In this document: positions 5,540 through 23,123 of the stretch, piece after piece
Layout of the letters: each line of letters begins with the position of its first letter
How positions within the stretch are numbered: the first letter of the stretch is position 1
NCBI GenBank assembly: GCA_017395215.1
Contig: JAFPVW010000135.1
Coordinates: 1-36,101, forward strand
Source of the DNA: Prevotella sp.
GTDB lineage: Bacteria > Bacteroidota > Bacteroidia > Bacteroidales > Bacteroidaceae
Direction of reading: 5' to 3'
DNA: 36,101 nucleotides
The notes under the pieces: generated by a model
Seen by the model: only the letters and a program-made list of their open reading frames with translations
Database searches by the model: none
What the model was told of the DNA's origin: nothing
Program-made: the position numbers and the translations under genes

Positions 5540-5576
5540 AGCTTTTCATTTCTCATTCCTCATTTCTCATTCCTCA
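5540..5576 (-). repeat. 7-bp tandem repeats filling the gap before the glutaminyl cyclase start
   Basis: On the minus strand about five units alternate ATGAGGA and ATGAGAA from the upstream gene's stop codon (5574-5576, itself part of the array) to the ATG at 5539. Each unit contains the start/stop overlap ATGA, and because the period is 7 the copies fall in successive frames. Confidence 0.85.
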
Positions 5577-7406
5577 TTTCTTCTGTACTTGTGTCATGAC
5601 GCGAAGAAAGTTGCCGCCCCAGATCTTCTGGATATCGCGCTCGGAGTAGCGGCGGGCAAGGAGCTGGCGCGTGAAGTTGATCAGCTCCGACGAGTCGCGC
5701 AGGCCGCGGATGCCGCCGTCGCCGTCGAAGTCGGTGCCCAGTCCGACGTGGTCGATGCCCATGATGCGGATGGCATGCTCCAAATGAGCAATGGCACCAA
5801 GGACAGTAGCCTCGCCGTCCTTGACGAGGAAACCGTTGTAAAGGGTGATCTGCATCACGCCGCCCGCAGCAGCCAGACGCTGCATCTGGTCGTCGGTGAG
5901 GTTGCGGGGATGGTCGCAGAGGGCGCGGCACGACGAATGGCTGCAGACGATGGGCGTCTGACTGATGTCGAGGGCGTCGTAGAACGACTTGTCGCCGGCG
6001 TGGCTCAGGTCGACCATCAGTCCGAGGCGGTTCATCTCGCGGATGACCTGCTCGCCGAAGCGGCTGACGCCGTCGTGGGTGTTGCAGCCGCGGCAGGAGT
6101 CGCAGAGGTCGTTGTCGCCGTTGTGGCAGAGGGTGATATAGACCACGCCTCGGTCGGCGAAGTGCTCGACGTTCTTCAGCTCGCCGCCAAGGGCCAGCCC
6201 GTTCTCGATGCCGAGCATGATCGACTTGCGGCCGTGGCGCTTGTTCTCGTAGAGGTCGCCAGGGGTGCGGGCCAGGGCTATGTAGTCGGCATTCGCATTG
6301 ACAATCTCCTCAATCTTGTCGAAGATAAGGTCGGCATACTCCGTGGGTCCCTGCACGTCGAAGTCGACCTTGCTGGAGAAGGTCTCGCCCATCTTCGGCT
6401 GCGGCAGGTAGGCGACCATGATGGTGGCATCCTGCCGGCCTTCGGTCATCTTGTGCAGGTCGACGAGTATGCGGGGGTCGCGCTGCTCGAAATGTATGCC
6501 CTGCGGGAAGAACATCGGCGTGTCGCAGTGGGTGTCGAGCGTCAGCACGCGGTTGTGCACCTCGTGGGCGTGGCGGTAGGCATTAGCCTCAGCGACGAGC
6601 CACTCGAACAGGGGCAGACCGTCGTCGCCCAGGCACTCCGGGTGCCACTGCACGCCGAGTATGCTCTTGAACTCCGAGCTCTCGATGACCTCGATGATGC
6701 CGTCAGTGACAGTAGCCACGACACGGAACCGCTCGCCCGGCTCGCTGACGGCCTGGTGGTGGAAGGAGTTGACGAGGAGCCTCCCACCATCCCCCTCAAG
6801 CCTCCCCCCTGCCCCCTCCCGTAGAGGGGGAGTCTTGAGCGCTTCTATATATATATTATATAAGGTGGAATCTTCGGCGATGGTGACGCTATGGGTTGGC
6901 TCTGAGCGGTCGGCGTCCTGCGAATGCTTGACCGAGCCTCCCCTCCCTATGGGTGAGGGGCCGGGGGTGGAGCTTATGTCCTGACAGACCTTGCCGCCCA
7001 GTGCGACGGCCAGCGTCTGAATGCCGCGACAGATGCCGAGCATGGGCATCTGGCGGTTGTAGGCCAGGCGGGTGATGAGCAGCTCGGGCAGGTCGCGCTC
7101 GCTGTTGATGCCACGGAGTCCGGGCACCGGCTCCTCGCCGCAGTACAAGGGGTTGATGTCGCCGCCACCGCTGAGGATGAGCGCGTCGATGTGGTCGAGC
7201 GTGTTCATCAGCACGGCCTTGTCGGCCGACGGCGGAATAATGACGGGCGTGCCCCCGGCACGGATGACCGACTGGTAATAGCCCTTGCCCAGCTTGCAGG
7301 TAAGGTCCTCGTAGTTGCCCGTAATGCCAATGACGGGCTGACGGCTGGCAGCGGGATAGCCGCTGTACACCGCGTCGATATGGTTCTGCAGACTAAAACT
7401 TTTCAC
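5574..7406 (-). CDS. Fusion of C26 gamma-glutamyl hydrolase/class I amidotransferase with M19 membrane-type dipeptidase (610 aa)
   Basis: Residues about 22-275 are a peptidase C26 (PuuD-like) domain: the nucleophile Cys is in LGICRGIQTLAVALGG, and the His-Glu pair is in LGVQWHPE. Residues about 285-605 are an M19 (renal dipeptidase) domain with metal ligands in LTLDTHCDTPMF, the bridging Glu in MLGIENGLALGG, then DLSHAG, VCSHSSCRALCDHPRN and HVGLGTDFDG. No signal peptide is seen, so it is likely cytoplasmic. C26 enzymes cleave gamma-glutamyl bonds and M19 enzymes cleave dipeptides such as Cys-Gly, so the fusion could degrade gamma-glutamyl peptides in two steps (inference). Two GC-rich palindromic insertions interrupt the C26 domain in frame (residues about 145-158 and 190-208). 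The best start is GTG at 7406, preceded by a TGA two codons upstream. It lies 17 bp downstream of the Lrp-family gene. Confidence 0.88.
   Translation of the reverse strand: MKSFSLQNHIDAVYSGYPAASRQPVIGITGNYEDLTCKLGKGYYQSVIRAGGTPVIIPPSADKAVLMNTLDHIDALILSGGGDINPLYCGEEPVPGLRGINSERDLPELLITRLAYNRQMPMLGICRGIQTLAVALGGKVCQDISSTPGPSPIGRGGSVKHSQDADRSEPTHSVTIAEDSTLYNIYIEALKTPPLREGAGGRLEGDGGRLLVNSFHHQAVSEPGERFRVVATVTDGIIEVIESSEFKSILGVQWHPECLGDDGLPLFEWLVAEANAYRHAHEVHNRVLTLDTHCDTPMFFPQGIHFEQRDPRILVDLHKMTEGRQDATIMVAYLPQPKMGETFSSKVDFDVQGPTEYADLIFDKIEEIVNANADYIALARTPGDLYENKRHGRKSIMLGIENGLALGGELKNVEHFADRGVVYITLCHNGDNDLCDSCRGCNTHDGVSRFGEQVIREMNRLGLMVDLSHAGDKSFYDALDISQTPIVCSHSSCRALCDHPRNLTDDQMQRLAAAGGVMQITLYNGFLVKDGEATVLGAIAHLEHAIRIMGIDHVGLGTDFDGDGGIRGLRDSSELINFTRQLLARRYSERDIQKIWGGNFLRVMTQVQKK
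6781..6838 (-). repeat. GC-rich palindromic element inserted in frame in the C26 domain (copy A1)
   Basis: CCCCCTC (6812-6818) pairs with GAGGGGG (6824-6830), in a region of Pro/Arg/Gly/Glu codons. It encodes roughly TPPLREGAGGRLEGDGG, placed between the conserved HSVTI strand and the VNSFHHQAV motif of the domain. The same unit, in the same plus-strand orientation, recurs at 21460 inside the RND pump gene. Confidence 0.75.
6934..6972 (-). repeat. GC-rich palindromic element inserted in frame in the C26 domain (copy A2)
   Basis: CCCCTCCC (6940-6947) faces GTGAGGGG (6953-6960), and the unit ends in CCGGGGGTGGAG. It encodes SSTPGPSPIGRGGS in the amidotransferase domain. Similar plus-strand units lie at 21507-21542, 22565-22601 and 24188-24216. 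Confidence 0.75.
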
Positions 7407-11840: not shown

Positions 11841-13763
11841 ATGGCAGAAGTTTTAGAAGTGAAGGAGCTGGACCAGGTTGTTGTCCGCTTCTCGGGTGAC
11901 TCCGGCGACGGTATGCAGTTGGCCGGAAACATTTTTTCAACCGTCAGCGCCACGGTGGGAAACGGCATCTCGACGTTTCCCGACTACCCCGCTGACATCC
12001 GCGCCCCGCAAGGCTCGCTGACGGGCGTCTCGGGCTTTCAGGTACACATCGGAGCGGGCAAGGTCTACACGCCCGGCGACAAGTGCGACGTGCTGGTGGC
12101 CATGAACGCCGCCGCGCTGAAGACGCAGTACCGCTACGCCAAGCCCGGCGCAACGATTATCATCGACACCGACTCGTTCGGTCCGAAGGATCTGGAGAAG
12201 GCACAGTTCAAGACCGAGGACTACCTCGGCGAGATGGGCATCGACCCCGACCGCGTCATCCAGTGCCCGCTGACAACGATGGTGAAACAAGCACTCATGC
12301 CAGCCCCCCCTTCAGCCCCCGAGGGGGCCACAATAGTTGGCAAGAGTAATGAAGCCCCCTCGGGGGCAGTAGGGGGGGCCAGCATCGATATGAAGTCTGT
12401 TTTGAAGTGCCGCAATATGTTCGCACTGGGACTCGTCTGCTGGCTCTTCGACCGCGACCTCAACCTGGTGGCCAACTTCCTGCGTGAGAAGTTCGCCAAG
12501 AAACCCGCCATTGCCGAGGCTAACATCAAGGTGATTCAGGCCGGCTGGGACTACGGCCACAACACCCACTCGTCGACGGTCAACGTCTACCGCGTGGAGT
12601 CGAAGGTGAAGGAGCCCGGACGCTATATGGACATTACGGGTAACAAGGCCACAGCCTACGGCTTCATCGCCGCTGCCGAGAAGGCCGGACTGAAGCTCTA
12701 CCTCGGCTCCTACCCTATCACACCGGCCACCGACGTGCTCCACGAGCTGTCGAAGCACAAGTCGTGCGGCGTCATCACCGTGCAGTGCGAGGACGAAATC
12801 TCGGGCTGCGCTTCGGCCCTCGGCGCCTCGTTCGCCGGAGCCCTCGGCGTGACCAGCACCTCCGGCCCCGGCATCTGCCTGAAGTCAGAGGCCATGAACC
12901 TGGCCGTCATCATGGAGCTGCCGCTCGTCGTGCTCGACGTGCAGCGCGGCGGTCCTGCCACCGGTCTGCCCACTAAGTCGGAACAGACCGACCTGCTGCA
13001 GGCTCTCTTCGGCCGCAACGGCGAGAGCCCCATGCCGGTGATGGCTGCCACCAGTCCCACCGACTGCTTCGACGCCGCCTACCAGGCTTGCAAGATGGCA
13101 CTGGAGCACATGACGCCCGTCGTGCTGCTGACCGATGCCTTCGTGGCCAACGGCTCGGGAGCCTTCAAACTGCCCGAGATGGACAAGCTCGACCCCATCA
13201 ATCCGCCATACGTGCCCGAGGATCTGAAGGGCAAGTGGACACCCTACATGCGTGCCGAGAACGGCACCCGCTACTGGGCTGTGCCCGGTCGTGAGGGCTT
13301 CGCCCACATCCTCGGCGGACTGGAGAAGGACAGCAATACCGGTGCCATCTCCACCAATCCTGAGAACCACGACCTGATGACGCGCCTGCGCCAGCAGAAG
13401 ATTGCCAACATCGAGGTGCCCGACCTGGAGGTCAGCGGCGACGTCGACGATGCCGACCTGCTGATTGTGGGCTTCGGCTCTACCTACGGCCACTTGCACT
13501 CGGCCATGGACGAACTCCGCCAGAAAGGCTACAAGGTGGCTCAGGCTCACTTCAAGTACCTGAACCCGCTGCCCAAGAACACCGCCGCCGTGCTCTCTAA
13601 ATATAATAAGGTGGTGGTGGCCGAGCAGAACATGGGTCAGCTCGCCGCCTACCTGCGCATGAAGGTCGACGGCTTCGTGCCCTACCAGTTCAATCAGGTA
13701 AAGGGCCAGCCGTTCGTGGTCGAAGAACTCGTCAATGCGTTCGAAGAGATAATTAAGAAATAA
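11841..13763 (+). CDS. korA: 2-oxoacid:ferredoxin oxidoreductase (2-oxoglutarate type), fused gamma-alpha subunit (640 aa)
   Basis: KorA with KorB catalyses CoA-dependent oxidative decarboxylation of a 2-oxoacid with reduction of ferredoxin, or the reverse; the KorAB type generally acts on 2-oxoglutarate. The N-terminal gamma domain starts VVVRFSGDSGDGMQLAG and includes FPDYPADIRAPQGSLTGVSG and GDKCDVLVAMNAAALK (about residues 12-180). The alpha domain starts at about residue 270 (TAYGFIAAAEKAGLKLYLGS, YPITPATDVLHELSKH) and includes VQRGGPATGLPTKSEQTDL; the C-terminal region ends GQPFVVEELVNAFEE. An 85-bp palindromic element is inserted in frame at residues about 153-181, before the conserved KNMFALG-like stretch (CRNMFALGLVCWLFDRDL). 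The korB gene is 600 bp downstream, separated by the GxxExxY element. Strict substrate choice (2-oxoglutarate versus a branched acid) is not certain. Confidence 0.93.
   Translation: MAEVLEVKELDQVVVRFSGDSGDGMQLAGNIFSTVSATVGNGISTFPDYPADIRAPQGSLTGVSGFQVHIGAGKVYTPGDKCDVLVAMNAAALKTQYRYAKPGATIIIDTDSFGPKDLEKAQFKTEDYLGEMGIDPDRVIQCPLTTMVKQALMPAPPSAPEGATIVGKSNEAPSGAVGGASIDMKSVLKCRNMFALGLVCWLFDRDLNLVANFLREKFAKKPAIAEANIKVIQAGWDYGHNTHSSTVNVYRVESKVKEPGRYMDITGNKATAYGFIAAAEKAGLKLYLGSYPITPATDVLHELSKHKSCGVITVQCEDEISGCASALGASFAGALGVTSTSGPGICLKSEAMNLAVIMELPLVVLDVQRGGPATGLPTKSEQTDLLQALFGRNGESPMPVMAATSPTDCFDAAYQACKMALEHMTPVVLLTDAFVANGSGAFKLPEMDKLDPINPPYVPEDLKGKWTPYMRAENGTRYWAVPGREGFAHILGGLEKDSNTGAISTNPENHDLMTRLRQQKIANIEVPDLEVSGDVDDADLLIVGFGSTYGHLHSAMDELRQKGYKVAQAHFKYLNPLPKNTAAVLSKYNKVVVAEQNMGQLAAYLRMKVDGFVPYQFNQVKGQPFVVEELVNAFEEIIKK
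12299..12383 (+). repeat. REPIN-like palindromic element inserted in frame in korA
   Basis: A left arm (12299-12328) and a right arm (12354-12383), each 30 nt, are imperfect reverse complements (about 5 differences). Each arm contains its own CCCCCGAGGGGG-type hairpin, and a 25-nt centre separates them. The element is open in the korA frame and encodes a Pro/Ala/Gly/Ser-rich stretch (APPSAPEGA ... EAPSGAVGGAS). Confidence 0.88.
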
Positions 13764-13784
13764 ATCAATCAATAGAAAACAAAG

Positions 13785-13912
13785 ATTTAAAGATTTAAAA
13801 GATTTTTGGCCTTGGAGGATTTAAAGATTTAAAAGATTTTTGGCCTTGGAGGGTTTAAAGATTTAAAAGATTTTTGGCCTTGGAGGATTTAAAGATTTAA
13901 AAGATTTTTGGT
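13785..13912 (+). repeat. 34-bp tandem repeat, nearly four copies
   Basis: The unit GGATTTAAAGATTTAAAAGA followed by TTTTTGGCCTTGGA repeats with a period of exactly 34 bp: the TTGG anchors fall at 13808, 13842, 13876 and 13910. One copy has GGGTTT in place of GGATTT, and the last copy diverges (GGTTATGG) where it meets the GxxExxY start. The unit contains the left inverted repeat of the element. Confidence 0.95.
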
Positions 13913-13913
13913 T

Positions 13914-14297
13914 ATGGTTTACACAAGTGGAGTTGAGACACACGAGATAATAGGTGCGGCAATGGCTGTCCACCGTGAACTCGGGTGTGGCTTTACCGAA
14001 AAAGTGTACCAGGATGCTCTCGAAATTGAATTACAACATCGTCAGATTCCTTATAAACGCGAATATCCGCTACATGCCACATACAGAGGAGTGGTACTGA
14101 AGACAGCGTTTGTTCCTGATTTTATATGCTATGACCAAATCGTAGTGGAGCTGAAAGCAGTTAAGGAACTGGAGAATATCTTTCGTGCCCAAGCCATGAA
14201 TTATGCAAAGGTAGCTGGTTGCAAGATTGCTGTACTCTTGAATTTTGGCGAGACGTCATTGAAATATGAGCGTTACAACATTCAGCAAAATCCATAA
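13914..14297 (+). CDS. GxxExxY family protein (PD-(D/E)XK nuclease-like, 127 aa)
   Basis: The family signature is present as GFTEKVY (G-x-x-E-x-x-Y), preceded by IIGAAMAVHRELG. The second half carries a PD...ELK pattern (VPDFICYDQIVVELKAVKEL) as in PD-(D/E)XK nucleases, followed by RAQAMNYAKVAGCKIAVLLNFG. The acidic and Lys positions expected of an active nuclease fold are kept, but activity is unproven for this family. ATG 13914 is chosen; an upstream in-frame TTG (13908) lies within the last 34-bp repeat. Base composition is more AT-rich and codon use differs from the GC-rich korA and korB on either side, suggesting separate origin. Flanking inverted repeats suggest that ORF and flanks arrived together. 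It would be cotranscribed with korAB. Confidence 0.9.
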   Translation: MVYTSGVETHEIIGAAMAVHRELGCGFTEKVYQDALEIELQHRQIPYKREYPLHATYRGVVLKTAFVPDFICYDQIVVELKAVKELENIFRAQAMNYAKVAGCKIAVLLNFGETSLKYERYNIQQNP

Positions 14298-14362
14298 TCT
14301 ACGGACTCCAAGACAGAAAAAATCTTCAAAATCTTAAAATCTTTGTATAAAAAATAAACAAT

Positions 14363-15367
14363 ATGAGTTACAGTGCACAAGATTTCAAGAAAGGACAGCC
14401 GCGGTGGTGTCCGGGTTGTGGCGACCACTTCTTCCTGGCTTCGCTCCATAAGGCTATGGCAGAGATTGGCGTAGCTCCTGAGAATGTGGCAGTTATCAGC
14501 GGTATCGGCTGTTCGAGCCGTCTGCCGCACTACATGGCTACCTACGGCATGAACACCATCCACGGACGTGCCGCCGCCATCGCTACCGGCGCCAAGGTGG
14601 CTAACCCCGACCTGACCGTCTGGCAGGTGTCGGGCGACGGCGACGGACTGGCCATCGGCGGTAACCACTTCATCCACGCCAACCGCCGTAACATCGACCT
14701 GAACATGATTCTGTTGAACAACCGCATCTACGGTCTGACCAAGGGCCAGTACTCGCCGACCAGCCCCCGTGGCTTCGTCTCGAAGTCCTCACCCTACGGC
14801 ACCGTCGAGGACCCGTTCCGTCCCGCCGAGCTGTGCTTCGGTGCCCGCGGCCACTTCTTCGCACGCTGCGTGGCTACCGATGCCAAGGGCACCGTTGAGG
14901 TGCTGAAGGCTGCCTACGAGCACAAGGGTGCTTCGGTGACCGAGGTGCTGCAGAACTGCGTCATCTTCAACGACCACTGCCACGACATCGTTTACAACAA
15001 CGAGGGCCGCAAGAAGAACGCCATCTACGTGCGCCACGGCGAGAAGCTGGTGTTCGGCGAGAACAACGAATACGGCCTCGTGCAGCAGGGCTTCGGCCTG
15101 AAGGTTGTTGAGATTGGCAAGGACGGCTACACGCTCGACGACGTGCTTACCCATGATGCCCACTGTCAGGACAACACCCTGCAGCTGAAGCTTGCCCTGA
15201 TGACCCCCGAGGATGGTTTCCCCATCGCCCTCGGCGTCATCCGCGACGTGGAGGCTCCCACCTACAACGACGCTGTCTACGCTCAGATTGCTGAGGTCTC
15301 AGCCCAGAAGAAGTATCACAACTTCGCTGAGCTGTTAGAGACCAACGACATCTGGGAAGTGAAATAA
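14363..15367 (+). CDS. korB: 2-oxoacid:ferredoxin oxidoreductase (2-oxoglutarate type), beta subunit (334 aa)
   Basis: KorB binds thiamine diphosphate and partners KorA in 2-oxoacid oxidation. Motifs include RWCPGCGDHFF (residues 14-24), ISGIGCSSRLPHY (45-57), NTIHGRAAAIATGAK (64-78), the ThDP site GDGDGLAIGGNHF (91-103) with NNRIYGLTKGQYSPT (119-133), and FARC in the second half. The length is typical of KorB. Translation starts at ATG 14363, 17 nt after the right inverted repeat of the GxxExxY element, which therefore forms part of the korB 5' region. A strong terminator follows the stop. Expression probably comes from the korA promoter; no separate promoter of the TAnnTTTG type was found in the short gap. 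Confidence 0.95.
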   Translation: MSYSAQDFKKGQPRWCPGCGDHFFLASLHKAMAEIGVAPENVAVISGIGCSSRLPHYMATYGMNTIHGRAAAIATGAKVANPDLTVWQVSGDGDGLAIGGNHFIHANRRNIDLNMILLNNRIYGLTKGQYSPTSPRGFVSKSSPYGTVEDPFRPAELCFGARGHFFARCVATDAKGTVEVLKAAYEHKGASVTEVLQNCVIFNDHCHDIVYNNEGRKKNAIYVRHGEKLVFGENNEYGLVQQGFGLKVVEIGKDGYTLDDVLTHDAHCQDNTLQLKLALMTPEDGFPIALGVIRDVEAPTYNDAVYAQIAEVSAQKKYHNFAELLETNDIWEVK

Positions 15368-18609: not shown

Positions 18610-21600
18610 ATGAAGAAGATGGACTGGCTCCGCTGGCCGCTGGAGCATTACTCAATATCGCTGCTCATCGTCGGCATCCTGTTCGTACTGGGCATCTACG
18701 GCATGTACGTCATGCCCAAGGACGAATTCCCGGCATTCACCATCCGTCAGGGTGTGGTGATAGCCGCCTACCCCGGCGCCACGACTGAGGAGGTGGAAAC
18801 CCAGGTGGCCAAGCCCCTCGAGCGCTACCTGTTCACCTTCGGCGAGGTGTGCCGCGCCAAGACCAGCACCACGTCGCAGAACGGTCTCTGCATCGTCATG
18901 GTGCGCCTCAACGACGAGGTCAACAACAAGGATGAGGTCTGGTCGAAGATCAAGCACGGCCTCAACCTCTTCAAGTCGTCGCTGCCCTCGGGCGTCGTCG
19001 CCCTTTTTGCCAACGACGACTTCGGCAACACGTCGGCCCTGCTCATTGCCATCGAGAGCCCGCAGCGTAGCTATCGCGAGCTTCAGAAATACACCGACCA
19101 GCTCTCCGACCGCCTGCGCCGCATACCCTCCGTGGCCAATGTCCGCACCTACGGTGAGCAGAAGGAGCAGATCTCGCTCTATGTCGACCGCCAGCGCCTC
19201 CAGGCCTACGGCATCGGCCAGCAGATGCTCTTCAGCCACCTGCAGTCGCAGGGCATCACCACCCTCAGCGGCAGCATCAGCGACGACGACCAGCAGATAC
19301 CTATTCATATCGAGGCCACCAACAATACCGAAGAGGAGATAGCCAACCAGATTATCTTCAGCGACCCCGTCAGCGGCAAGGTGGCCCGCGTCAGGGATGT
19401 GGCACGCGTCGTGCGCGAGTACGACAGCGTAGAAAGCTACATCGAGCAGGACGGCCACCCCTGCATGCTGCTCTCGCTTGAGATGACGCCCGGCAACAAC
19501 ATCGTACAGTATGGCGATGAGGTCGAGAGCGTGCTCAGCCGCTTCTCGGCCGACGAGCTGCCCGACGACGTCACCATCACCCGCATTGCCGACCAGCCGA
19601 AGGTCGTGGGTGCGAGCGTCCGCGACTTCCTGCGCGACCTGCTCGTCTCGATGGCCATCATCGTCCTGGTCATGATGGTGCTCTTCCCCCTGCGCTCGGC
19701 CATCGTGGCTGCCATCACCATTCCGCTGAGCACCTTCGTCTCGGTGGCTATCATGTATATGATGGGCATCGAGCTCAACATCGTCACCCTCGCCGCCCTC
19801 ATCGTGGTGCTCGGCATGGTCGTCGACAATGCCATCGTCGTCATCGACGGCTATCTGGAGTATGTCGGCAAGGGCTACACCCCCAAGGAGGCCGCCATCG
19901 CCTCGGCCAAGCAGTATTTCATGCCGATGATGCTCGCCACACTCTGCATCTGCGTCATCTTCTACCCGCTGCTGCTCACGCTGAAGGGCGCCTTCAACGA
20001 TGCCCTGAGGGACTTCCCCGTCACCATCACCATCAACCTCATGGTGTCGCTCTTCCTCGCCGTCACCGTCATCCCCTTCCTCGAGGTGCTGATCATCAAG
20101 ACGCCCGTCGCCAAGCAGGGCGGAGGCGGGGGCGGGGCAATCACCCGCTGGGTGCAGACCACCTACGACAAGGTGCTCGACTTCACCTTCCGCCATCCGT
20201 GGCTCACCATCTGGGGCGGCGTCGGCATCATCCTGCTCTCGTGCCTCATCGTGCCCGCGCTGAAAATCCGACAGTTCCCCTTTGCCGACCGCGACCAGTT
20301 TGCCGTCGAGATATTCATGCCCGAGGGCAAGGGCATCGCCGAGACGCGCGTCATTGCCGACTCCCTGCGCCACGTGCTGCAGCAGGACGACAACGTCAAG
20401 TGCATCACCAGCTTCGTGGGCTGCTCGTCGCCGCGCTTCATGGTCTGCTACGCCCCGCAGATGGCCGGCCGCAACTACGCGCAGTTCATCGTCAACACCA
20501 CGTCGCACCAGGCCACCCTCGACCTGCTGGCCAAGTACCAGCCCCGCTGGAGCGAGGCCTTCCCCCAGGCCTACATCCGCTTCAAGCGCCTTGACTACCT
20601 CGAGGTGCCCGAGCTGGAGTACCGCTTCTATGGCGAAGACCTCGACTCGCTCCACGAGGCTGCCGAACGGCTGATGCTGCGCATGCGCGAGATGCCCGAG
20701 CTCGAGTGGGTACACACCGACTTCCTGCAGCCCTACCCGCTCATCAACGTCGAGCTCGACCCCGTGGCCTCCGCGCAGCTGGGCATATCGCGCACCACCG
20801 CAGCCCTCGCCCTGAGCGCTACTACCAACGACCTGCGCGTAGGCCAGGTCTATGAGGACGACTACGAACTGCCCATCGTCGTCAAGGACGATGCCGACAT
20901 GACCTTCTCTGACATTGAGAACCTCGGCATTGCCACACCGATGGCCGTGCTCTCGGCGGGTGCCGGCGGCACCAACAGCACCGTTCCGCTGCGCTCCATA
21001 GCCAAGGTCAGCCCCAAGTGGAGCGAGAGCCGCATCATGCACCGCGGCGGCGAGCGCTGCATCACCGTGACGGCGCAGTTTGCCTACGGCGTCTATGCCG
21101 CACCCATCGAGTCGCGCATTGCCGACATCATGGAGCACGAGATGCAGATTCCCGACGGCGTGCGCTCCGAGGTGGGCGGCGAAATCGAGTATAACGGCGA
21201 AGCCATGCCCCAGATCTTCGGCGGCGTGGCCATCGCCATGGTCATCATTTTCTTCTTCCTGCTGTTCAACTTCAAGAAGTTCGGCATCACCACCGTCTGC
21301 ATCGTCGCCCTCGGCCTGATGATACCCGGCGTGCTCGTCGGCCTCGGCCTGATGAACCGCACGCTCGGCCTCACCTCCATCATGGGCGTCATCACCCTCA
21401 TGGGAATGATCATGCGCAACGAGATCCTTATCTTCGAGCATGCCAACAGCCTGCTAAAAGGCCCCCTCCAACCTCCCCCCGTAGGGGAGGCTCAAGCCTC
21501 TCAAGTTCCCCTCCCTACGGGGGAGGGGTCCGGGGTGGGGCCCACCGTCCGCGAGGCCGCCTACGAGGCCGGCAAGCGCCGCATGGTGCCCATCTTCCTT

Positions 21601-21771
21601 ACCACCGCCACCACCGCCGTCGGTGTGGTCCCGATGATTATTGCGCAGTCGTCGTTCTGGATGCCTGTCGGTGTCACCATCTTCGCCGGCGGCATCGGCT
21701 CCCTCATCCTCGTCGTCACCATGCTCCCCGTCATCTACTGGAAAGTCAGCCTGAAAAAAAGTAAGAAATGA
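18610..21771 (+). CDS. RND-family efflux pump, inner-membrane permease (1053 aa)
   Basis: RND permeases export drugs, bile salts or metals using the proton gradient. The length and layout fit the HAE1/AcrB-like class: TM1 near residues 15-35, a large periplasmic loop, and a TM2-6 block (about 335-500) with LIVVLGMVVDNAIVVIDGY, which carries the proton-relay Asp (a DN variant of the usual DD). A second periplasmic loop and a TM8-12 block (about 870-1045) follow. Between two conserved cytoplasmic motifs, NEILIFEHANSLL and VREAAYEAGKRRMVPIF, an extra segment of about 25-28 residues (about 951-978) is encoded by a palindromic element. The gene overlaps the next one by ATGA. The substrate cannot be told from sequence. 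Confidence 0.95.
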   Translation: MKKMDWLRWPLEHYSISLLIVGILFVLGIYGMYVMPKDEFPAFTIRQGVVIAAYPGATTEEVETQVAKPLERYLFTFGEVCRAKTSTTSQNGLCIVMVRLNDEVNNKDEVWSKIKHGLNLFKSSLPSGVVALFANDDFGNTSALLIAIESPQRSYRELQKYTDQLSDRLRRIPSVANVRTYGEQKEQISLYVDRQRLQAYGIGQQMLFSHLQSQGITTLSGSISDDDQQIPIHIEATNNTEEEIANQIIFSDPVSGKVARVRDVARVVREYDSVESYIEQDGHPCMLLSLEMTPGNNIVQYGDEVESVLSRFSADELPDDVTITRIADQPKVVGASVRDFLRDLLVSMAIIVLVMMVLFPLRSAIVAAITIPLSTFVSVAIMYMMGIELNIVTLAALIVVLGMVVDNAIVVIDGYLEYVGKGYTPKEAAIASAKQYFMPMMLATLCICVIFYPLLLTLKGAFNDALRDFPVTITINLMVSLFLAVTVIPFLEVLIIKTPVAKQGGGGGGAITRWVQTTYDKVLDFTFRHPWLTIWGGVGIILLSCLIVPALKIRQFPFADRDQFAVEIFMPEGKGIAETRVIADSLRHVLQQDDNVKCITSFVGCSSPRFMVCYAPQMAGRNYAQFIVNTTSHQATLDLLAKYQPRWSEAFPQAYIRFKRLDYLEVPELEYRFYGEDLDSLHEAAERLMLRMREMPELEWVHTDFLQPYPLINVELDPVASAQLGISRTTAALALSATTNDLRVGQVYEDDYELPIVVKDDADMTFSDIENLGIATPMAVLSAGAGGTNSTVPLRSIAKVSPKWSESRIMHRGGERCITVTAQFAYGVYAAPIESRIADIMEHEMQIPDGVRSEVGGEIEYNGEAMPQIFGGVAIAMVIIFFFLLFNFKKFGITTVCIVALGLMIPGVLVGLGLMNRTLGLTSIMGVITLMGMIMRNEILIFEHANSLLKGPLQPPPVGEAQASQVPLPTGEGSGVGPTVREAAYEAGKRRMVPIFLTTATTAVGVVPMIIAQSSFWMPVGVTIFAGGIGSLILVVTMLPVIYWKVSLKKSKK
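21460..21542 (+). repeat. REPIN-like palindromic element inserted in frame in the RND pump gene
   Basis: It starts GGCCCCCTCC and ends GGGGTGGGGCC. Two hairpin units (CCTCCCCCCGTAGGGGAGG at about 21472 and CCCCTCCCTACGGGGGAGGGG at about 21509) lie in inverse orientation to each other, separated by CTCAAGCCTCTCAAG. It encodes a Pro/Gly/Glu-rich loop (GPLQPPPVGEAQ ... PLPTGEGSGVG). The two units match A1 and A2 of the C26/M19 gene in order and orientation. Confidence 0.85.
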
Positions 21772-23123
21772 AAAAGCCCCTCCTCTACCTCCTCTCCCTG
21801 CTCTGTCACCTATGCTGCAACACCGTTGCAGCCCAGCCCGGCTACACCCTGGCCCAGCTCAAGGACTCGGCTCTCGCCCATAACGCCGCCGTCAGCAACG
21901 CCCGACTCTCAGTCGACGCCGCCAGCCAGCAGCGCCGCGAGGCCTTCACCAAGTTCTTCCCCAACGTCAGCGCCACGGGCTTCACGTTCAATGCCAACCG
22001 CGGCATGGCCGAGACCACCGTCAACCCCTCCGAGATTGTCCCCTCGTCGCTGGCGCCCGCCCTGTCGCAGCTGTCCCCGCCCGAGGCCCTCGTCGCCCTC
22101 GCCAATCCCGTCACCATCTCCATGATGAAGAACGGCACCGTGGGCTCCATCATGGCCGTGCAGCCCGTCTTCGCCGGCGGACAGATAGTCAACGGCAACC
22201 GCCTCGCCCGCGTCGGCGAGGACGTCAGCCGGCTGCAGCTCCAGCTCTCGCAGCAGGAGGTAGAGCGCAACGTCGAGCAGTACTACTGGCAGCTCGTCAC
22301 CCTCAATGAGAAGCGGCGCACGCTCGATGCCGTCGACACGCTCCTTGCCGACATCCACAAGGACGTCGACGTGGCTGTCCGTGCCGGTGTCGCCCTGCGC
22401 AACGACCTCCTCCAGGTACAGCTTCGCCAGAACGACATCGCCTCGCAGCGCCTCAAGCTGAACAACGGCGTCACCCTACTCCACCTCCTCATCGCCCAGT
22501 ACTGCGGCCTGCAAGACACCACCTTTGCTCTCGCAGCGTCCGACATAAACAACCAAGGAAACCAACTCCCCTCCCTCTCAAGGGAGGGCTCGGGGGTGAG
22601 TCTTCTCCCCGAATACCGCCTCCTGGAGAAGCAGGTCGAGGCAGCAACCCTCCAGAAGAAGCTCGCCGTAGGCCAGAACCTGCCCTCGGTCGCCGTCGGT
22701 GCTGGCTACACCTACCACAACCTCCTCGACCGCGACCGCACCTTCGGCATGCTCTTCGCCACCGTCAGCGTGCCCATCTCCGACTGGTGGGGCGGTTCCC
22801 ACGCCGTCAAGCGCCGCAAGATTGAGCTGCAGCAGGCTGAAGAGCAACTGGCCGACAACGCCCAGCTGCTCAACATACGCATGCAGAAAACCTATAATGA
22901 TGTGGTCGAGGCCAACGAGCAGCTACAGCTCGCCCAGCGCAGCATTGAGCAGGCTGAAGAGAACCTCCGGCTCAACCGCAACTACTACCAGGCGGGCACG
23001 TCGCGCATGGCCGACCTGCTCGAGGCGCAGCTTCTCTACCAGCAGGCCCGCGACCGCCATACCGACGCCTTCGCCGACCTCCAGAACAAACTCCTGGAAT
23101 ACCGCTTCGCCACCGCCCAATAA
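21768..23123 (+). CDS. TolC-like outer-membrane efflux channel (451 aa)
   Basis: TolC-family proteins form the outer-membrane duct for RND pumps. The signal peptide ends NTVAA and is followed by Gln (predicted mature start QPGYTLAQLKDSAL). The two-fold OEP repeat with long amphipathic helices is visible: ARLSVDAASQQRREAFTKFF and DVSRLQLQLSQQEVERNVEQ in the first half; EYRLLEKQVEAATLQKKLAV and NYYQAGTSRMADLLEAQLLY in the second. The length is typical. A short palindromic element (residues about 266-278, LPSLSREGSGVS) sits just before the conserved LLPEYRLLEKQ motif. It overlaps the pump gene by 4 bp (ATGA) and ends the operon. Confidence 0.94.
   Translation: MKKPLLYLLSLLCHLCCNTVAAQPGYTLAQLKDSALAHNAAVSNARLSVDAASQQRREAFTKFFPNVSATGFTFNANRGMAETTVNPSEIVPSSLAPALSQLSPPEALVALANPVTISMMKNGTVGSIMAVQPVFAGGQIVNGNRLARVGEDVSRLQLQLSQQEVERNVEQYYWQLVTLNEKRRTLDAVDTLLADIHKDVDVAVRAGVALRNDLLQVQLRQNDIASQRLKLNNGVTLLHLLIAQYCGLQDTTFALAASDINNQGNQLPSLSREGSGVSLLPEYRLLEKQVEAATLQKKLAVGQNLPSVAVGAGYTYHNLLDRDRTFGMLFATVSVPISDWWGGSHAVKRRKIELQQAEEQLADNAQLLNIRMQKTYNDVVEANEQLQLAQRSIEQAEENLRLNRNYYQAGTSRMADLLEAQLLYQQARDRHTDAFADLQNKLLEYRFATAQ
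22565..22601 (+). repeat. Palindromic element inserted in frame in the TolC-like gene (single unit)
   Basis: ACTCCCCTCCCTCTCAAGGG runs into AGGGCTCGGGGGTGAGT. The core CCCTCCC / GGGAGGG hairpin and the CGGGGGTG tail match unit A2 and the right unit of the RND insertion. Confidence 0.7.

Follow-up and report, generated by a model that had tools for sequence, protein, structure and literature searches.

The segment at positions 13779-14346 of a Prevotella contig, which separates the korA and korB genes, is on balance probably a selfish DNA element with a single gene: this gene codes for a predicted PD-(D/E)XK nuclease of the GxxExxY family, which would act on the inverted repeat arrays (the arms) that bound the element. 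By our account, the element occupies the gap between two neighboring genes of the same strand, where the transcription of the host genes would be borrowed by read-through to make the 127-aa nuclease. The arms are inverted arrays of short units particular to the nuclease lineage, and the nuclease may recognize either the array or the hairpin or cruciform formed by the arms and cut there. Repair would then copy the element to other sites, whether new or empty, and the same repair would keep the two arms alike; copies that consist of the hairpin only would be decayed or non-autonomous.

Organization of the korA-korB element

The window, i.e., the whole stretch of 36,101 nt that was analyzed, is contig C85 of a MAG (completeness 85%, contamination 5.9%). 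In it korA (11841-13763, a listed ORF), the GxxExxY gene (13914-14297, identified by profiles and predicted fold) and korB (14363-15367, a listed ORF) all lie on the plus strand. The names korA and korB are those of an earlier sequence-only reading of this DNA; they fit the translations and are based on these. A spacer (13764-13778) leads from the korA stop to the left arm (13779-13911), in which sequence and repeat analysis reveal ~9-nt AAAGATTT units within 3.8 copies of a 34-bp unit, the copies spanning 13784-13911. The 127-aa ORF starts with the ATG at 13914 and is followed by the right arm (14306-14346), an array with an 8-nt period delimited by inverted-repeat and repeat analysis, and by a second spacer (14347-14362) up to the korB start; all these parts are given on the plus strand.

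The sequence-only reading had described near-perfect inverted arms at 13779-13807 and 14318-14346 that enclose a single PD-(D/E)XK-like ORF, and both statements are confirmed: the 29-nt arms pair at 26 of 29 positions (90% complementary) at a distance of 510 nt, and the ORF matches the TIGR04256 and PF13366 profiles. The further pairing that it saw inside the arms is partly genuine: pairing resumes inward after a 2-nt gap for ~10 nt, between GGCCTTGGAG and a partner at 14306-14317 that pairs with the inner end of the first left unit; a part of it is redundancy of the array, as the left arm forms the first of several array units. To score such flanks we compared the 250 nt upstream of a gene with the reverse complement of the 250 nt downstream, with mismatched pairs of loci as the null. 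The window locus scores 45, as against 99th percentiles of the mismatched pairs of 40 in a 32-locus set and 37 in a 91-locus set; 0.6% of its own mismatched pairs score 45 or more.

The same MAG has two further GxxExxY genes with complementary flanks of different sequence: one on contig C64 with ACGGATT-type arms (score 61) and one on contig C78 with CAAATTAGCACAAATTG-type arms (score 40 by local alignment; absent from the repeat-finder output). Its three GxxExxY genes hence have three arm sequences, with no one inverted repeat in common. ORF-less arrays of the AAAGATT type are also present in this genome: 11 of 16 pattern matches lie away from the window locus, and a reversed control pattern gave 1 match. 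ORF-less AAAGATT-type hairpins were further seen in tandem at contig ends (contigs C135 and C136: L023, 53-264 and 1958-2240; L024, 16-330), where their repetition may in part be an assembly effect.

The GxxExxY protein

The window protein matches TIGR04256 (E 8e-40, 135.9 bits, cut-off 35) and PF13366 (E 1.6e-37, 128.9 bits, cut-off 22), with no second Pfam match; these are the sole profile matches of the ORF, and no transposase was found in it. Across 112 aligned sequences G26, E29, Y32, D69, E79 and K81 are conserved, and the putative catalytic residues D69, E79 and K81 are invariant in all 112. By its D...(D/E)xK residues and the predicted fold of the 127-aa protein (pLDDT 94.8) it belongs to the PD-(D/E)XK superfamily as a predicted nuclease; the predicted fold indicates no substrate. 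In the three of six sequence pairs for which dS could be obtained, dN/dS values of 0.12, 0.13 and 0.03 point to purifying selection on the gene.

The nearest relatives in titled records, among the best 80 of 542 confirmed GxxExxY loci, are from Bacteroidaceae and Prevotellaceae MAGs. Searches with the window element gave no match in PADLOC or in phage records, and one weak PHROGs match of unknown function (E 0.0009). A PDB sequence match to T7 endonuclease I (E 0.54) is at chance level and was set aside.

Inverted short-unit arrays around GxxExxY genes

We assembled a genus set of 92 loci among the matches listed, which are mostly the higher-scoring ones, and a collection set of the best 80 of 542 confirmed GxxExxY loci. 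The 172 loci gave 174 HMM hits, 171 after removal of duplicates, of which 166 have flanks of 120 nt both upstream and downstream. They include 75 collection loci: 32 from Bacteroidota, 40 from phyla other than this one and 3 with no phylum, as sorted by record titles.

Looking for inverted repeats around other GxxExxY genes was a check put forward with the sequence-only reading. The flanks exceed the 95th percentile of the null at 131 of these 166 non-redundant loci (among the matches listed), as against 10 of 245 control ORFs from the same loci, 5 of which exceed the 99th percentile; an earlier control, for which the bounds were different, gave 2 of 166. The remaining 35 GxxExxY loci, again among the matches listed, do not pass. 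Within the genus set, from the matches listed, the flanks pass the 95th percentile at 73 of 91 loci and the 99th at 54; within the collection set, from the best 80 of 542, the counts are 58 and 35 of 75. The loci from outside Bacteroidota in that same selection, scored against a null of their own, pass in 26 of 40 (95th) and 13 of 40 cases (99th). Examples of arms outside the phylum are ACCGCCAAGGACGCCAAG in a planctomycete, Aeoliella (L279), AACCGCAGATAAACGCAGAT in an acidobacterium (L256) and AACCACGAATTAACACGAAT in a member of Gallionellaceae (L271). At three GxxExxY loci on named plasmids, a set without a computed null, the arms are weak and score 22, 24 and 17.

Features of the arms were examined at the 119 of 166 loci where they are clear. 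The median arm is 38 columns long, with 86% identity, and the median span is 549 nt; a best period of 8-10 nt is seen at 67 of these loci, with 9 nt at 34. The polarity of the units relative to the gene, scored with a motif chosen after the arms had been inspected, is the same in 94, reversed in 7 and undecided in 18. There is no sign of a target-site duplication at these loci: adjacent repeats of at least 4 nt are as frequent in own as in mismatched pairs (10% each). Common 6-mers are found in 18% of own and 9% of mismatched pairs, which is a weak difference. An AAC[CA] signature at the outer ends was considered as a possible terminus; it is present in 19 of 119 upstream arms (3% at random), too few for such a role. 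At one locus (L036; G086:C68 6002-6838) two equally scoring GxxExxY genes follow each other in tandem at a distance of 495 nt, which looks like a duplication of the unit.

Turnover at the korA-korB junction

Comparison of this junction in related strains was another check put forward. From 150 genomes of the genus we took the 30 loci with the closest korB; 29 have korA on the contig, and L083 was left out. korB is at least 94.6% identical among the compared relatives, and the junction contents and remnants were classed by eye. Empty sites do occur in close relatives: 15 of the 29 junctions are empty or short, ten with a gap of 8-13 bp and five with 30-62 bp. Nine hold a GxxExxY gene within one of four arm types, namely AAAGATT, CACAGATT, CACGAATT/CACTAATT and ACGGATT (in L069 the gene has an apparent internal stop). 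The rest are made up by a PF05635 four-helix gene within AGTTAAG-type arms (L068), a DUF559 gene within GC-rich palindromic arms and three ORF-less remnants.

In the korB tree most inner branches are weak, with 16 of 26 open. Five forks are well supported: three join unlike contents, namely a GxxExxY element and an empty site (96/87), a remnant and an empty site (99/91), and a GxxExxY and a four-helix element (96/93), while two join short junctions. A fork between GxxExxY and DUF559 contents has less support (80/93). As the AAAGATT element occurs at the junction in four relatives (L055, L056, L067 and L072), it is likely to have been partly inherited in place.

The junction comparison indicates that the GxxExxY gene is not an old, fixed gene between korA and korB; no gain was observed directly, and an empty junction could also reflect loss of the element. 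The proposal of a minimal selfish element is well supported by the empty sites in relatives together with the repeats that flank GxxExxY genes at large: neither of the two outcomes named in advance as speaking against it, an old gene fixed at this place or a lack of inverted repeats around other GxxExxY genes, is what the data gave. In the MAG of the window (G000:C173 2257-3398, L130) we also observed a second korB fragment, 89% identical, with a DUF559 gene immediately upstream; it probably stems from a contaminating strain with a different cargo at the same junction.

Arms, protein lineages and sibling cargo families

Arm similarity and GxxExxY protein identity are correlated (Mantel r 0.19 for 66 genus loci and 0.33 for 53 collection loci, p 0.001), as against r 0.01 and 0.08, respectively, for a control piece of the same length further upstream; pairs at different sites alone give r 0.17 (p 0.002). 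For instance, L001 and L046 (75% identical) lie at different sites and have ACGGATT arms in common, as do L033 and L040 (76% identical) with CACAGAAAT arms. The agreement between protein and arms is a loose one: of the 45 different-site pairs with 65-95% identical proteins, 49% have arm words in common, and L151/L039 (85%), L193/L177 (78%) and L029/L033 (77%) are among those that do not.

The four-helix and DUF559 genes are the other cargo families found with this layout. Of 100 genomes of the genus, 87 have matches to the four-helix family, 65 to GxxExxY and 62 to DUF559; the flanks exceed the 95th percentile of mismatched pairs at 17 of 30 four-helix and 15 of 30 DUF559 loci. In a nearest-neighbor test on arm 4-mers, 92% of 102 arms are assigned to the right cargo family, whereas shuffled labels give 48%: each cargo family has its own repeat style. 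The arms tested, selected by a looser cut, were 66 of GxxExxY, 20 of four-helix (from 29) and 16 of DUF559 genes (from 29).

Ten four-helix loci on cyanobacterial plasmids were scored without a computed null: seven are clearly bounded by inverted arrays of short units, for instance (AATTCGC)n and (AATTCGT)n, and score 46-80, and the remaining three are weak with 33, 32 and 21. In one four-helix element of a Nostoc plasmid (L290, 830-1375), a ~25-nt piece that is not part of the heptads is present in both arms in the same register; similar sequences occur in 14 places in 7 Nostoc plasmid records. This suggests that one arm was copied from the other. In a further Nostoc plasmid (L285), a 466-nt four-helix element at 865-1330 (within 677-1573) replaces 328 nt of a DNA cytosine methyltransferase gene, which is whole in L298, L299 and L300; the split is common to L301 and L302. 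No target duplication was seen at this insertion. The uninterrupted genes have one CAATTCG ~8 nt from the left break and one CGAATTG further down, which hints at an insertion targeted to a cognate unit, in a single case noticed post hoc. On Planktothrix plasmids the element is present in all three matching records, with no empty site, and the Sphingomonas fabD-fabG site has only distant relatives for comparison.

Several of these genes were observed in or beside known operons: a four-helix gene between cas2 and cas1 (L291), another upstream of cas1 (L293), a third after drmD (L289) and a GxxExxY gene between fabD and fabG (L297). They are likely to be passengers there.

Palindromes are also present within coding genes of the window. 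At 12303-12380 korA contains an in-frame, GC-rich palindrome of the same type as the DUF559 arms, which adds 25 residues (PAPPSAPEGA...) and is absent from all 14 relatives with the site covered; it resembles a sibling element without an ORF, placed within a coding gene. Rickettsia palindromic elements are much like this in-frame insertion. By eye, the peptides TPPLREGAGG, LPTGEGSGV and PSLSREGSGV in the ORFs 5574-7406 (minus strand), 18610-21771 and 21768-23123 (both plus strand), respectively, suggest further in-frame insertions of this kind.

DNA or RNA, and other explanations

The arms might instead serve at the RNA level, as an intervening sequence: they would pair in the korA-korB transcript, RNase III would cut the stem and the ORF-bearing loop would be released. 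The insertion may thereby be harmless to the operon, as is the S23-encoding intervening sequence of 23S rRNA, and this may be compatible with the DNA reading. The pairing in the korAB mRNA that the sequence-only reading had envisaged stands as a prediction: the RNA fold of 13764-14362 has -157.6 kcal/mol (z -3.48; 0 of 100 shuffles are as low) with the arms as its closing stem. The sense orientation of the genes within gene pairs and the PF05635 gene with the same layout at the same korA-korB junction are also consistent with an action in RNA.

If pairing in the sense transcript had kept the arms alike, G-U should outnumber A-C among their mismatches. No such excess is seen in GxxExxY arms, with 113 G-U against 133 A-C among 692 mismatches at 119 loci; locus by locus, 23 lean toward G-U and 48 toward A-C, with 48 ties. 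The same holds for four-helix arms (16 against 28), DUF559 arms (13 against 19) and GxxExxY loci outside Bacteroidota (24 against 27), all of which counts against an upkeep of the arms by pairing in mRNA. Moreover, because the Nostoc four-helix element displaced 328 nt of coding sequence, it is no seamless intron there. A search of 13500-14600 against Rfam gave four matches, all far below the gathering score, and found no group I or group II intron structure. Given this evidence on both sides, we hold the RNA-level explanation to be unlikely as it stands.

Both neighbors lie on the strand of the gene at 81 of the 119 loci, and both on the opposite strand at 4. Since the genes lie in sense with their neighbors, this orientation apparently reflects a dependence on read-through transcription. 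Between 13700 and 14420 no sigma-70-type promoter was found on the sense strand and one on the other strand, which is the level of shuffled sequence, with a model that may not fit Bacteroidota. Promoters of Bacteroidota differ from the sigma-70 type.

We regard as quite unlikely an ordinary accessory gene, gained and lost in the usual way, with arms that form a local control or stability structure evolving with it. Purifying selection on the GxxExxY gene would fit such a role, as would arms that are transcribed together with the gene if it is read through. It is at odds with two unrelated families that have the same layout with arm styles of their own, with ORF-less hairpins that exist alone and with a scan of 13700-14420 that found no terminator-like site. 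A chance likeness of AT-rich, low-complexity flanks is highly improbable: simple arrays of similar composition can align, with a top mismatched-pair score of 66 in the 32-locus set, but the mismatched-pair nulls and the control ORFs, the constant unit polarity (94 loci against 7) and the GC-rich arms at other loci all speak against it.

Comparison with known systems

The proposed selfish element is set apart from known kinds because those of their defining features that can be tested fail in it. REPIN/RAYT and MITE-type elements are hairpin-bounded units, some without a gene, beside one enzyme family. The window-type elements are likewise hairpin-bounded, in part gene-less and tied to one enzyme family; they differ in that the window ORF is a PF13366 protein with no other Pfam match, and in that the arm sequence varies between the elements of one genome. 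The window ORF itself is not a Y1 (HUH) transposase, the partner gene of REPIN/RAYT, which may lie elsewhere in the genome. Homing endonuclease genes are small, code for a nuclease and have empty alleles in relatives. The window gene, too, is a small nuclease-family gene with empty alleles, and both the GxxExxY and the DUF559-like families are of the PD-(D/E)XK type; however, the element is distinguished by arms of its own and there is no intron or intein. From insertion sequences it differs by the lack of target-site duplication across the 119 loci, of a known transposase and of a shared inverted repeat.

The closest published systems are the intervening sequences of 23S rRNA and two kinds of short-period intergenic array. 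The intervening sequence of Coxiella, as described in part of PMC4990558, is 428 nt long with a 28-bp stem that is cut by RNase III in vitro: it is similarly an element of ~430 nt with one small ORF and terminal inverted repeats that close a stem, and its S23 family (PF05635/TIGR02436) occurs at korA-korB within array arms (L068). The window element differs by its ORF, which has PF13366 alone and is of another family than S23/PF05635, by its site between two protein genes rather than in an rRNA gene, and by arms that are periodic arrays.

Short-period intergenic arrays have been described with TAACTGA heptamers (in part of PMC4679880) and with GGGAATC heptamers in Xanthomonas and Nostoc, the latter forming 70 inverted pairs in one Xanthomonas genome and 75 in another (in part of PMC4692102). 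In a similar way, the cyanobacterial plasmid four-helix genes lie within inverted arrays of 7-nt units; unlike here, the parts of the two papers considered tie no gene to the arrays and mention neither S23 nor a four-helix family. We propose that the TAACTGA and GGGAATC arrays may be linked to the four-helix family.

Among the open-licence PMC papers listed we found no report of GxxExxY, four-helix or DUF559 genes inside inverted periodic arrays. The data suggest an undescribed class of one-gene selfish elements, spread over several phyla and three gene families; mobility by a known route, if established, would place the element within a known kind. A wider version of this idea is tentative: GxxExxY, the four-helix proteins of 23S rRNA intervening sequences and DUF559 might be three drivers of one such class, in which the protein recognizes a self-specific array and the arms are copied between each other and drift with the protein. 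Solo arms might then explain much of the short-period intergenic repeats that have no explanation so far (the cyanobacterial heptads, TAACTGA and perhaps GGGAATC), and rRNA intervening sequences would be one special landing place. If true, each lineage would bear its own address tag.

Implications

These findings would give a first testable role to TIGR04256/PF13366, PF05635 and DUF559, families that are widespread and poorly understood, and also to short-period repeat arrays that had been noted with no known cause. They carry a warning as well: such genes in or beside CRISPR, DISARM and metabolic operons may be passengers rather than parts of these systems. If each nuclease recognizes its own array, the elements would amount to a large natural set of nuclease/target pairs, in which the specificity is written beside the gene.
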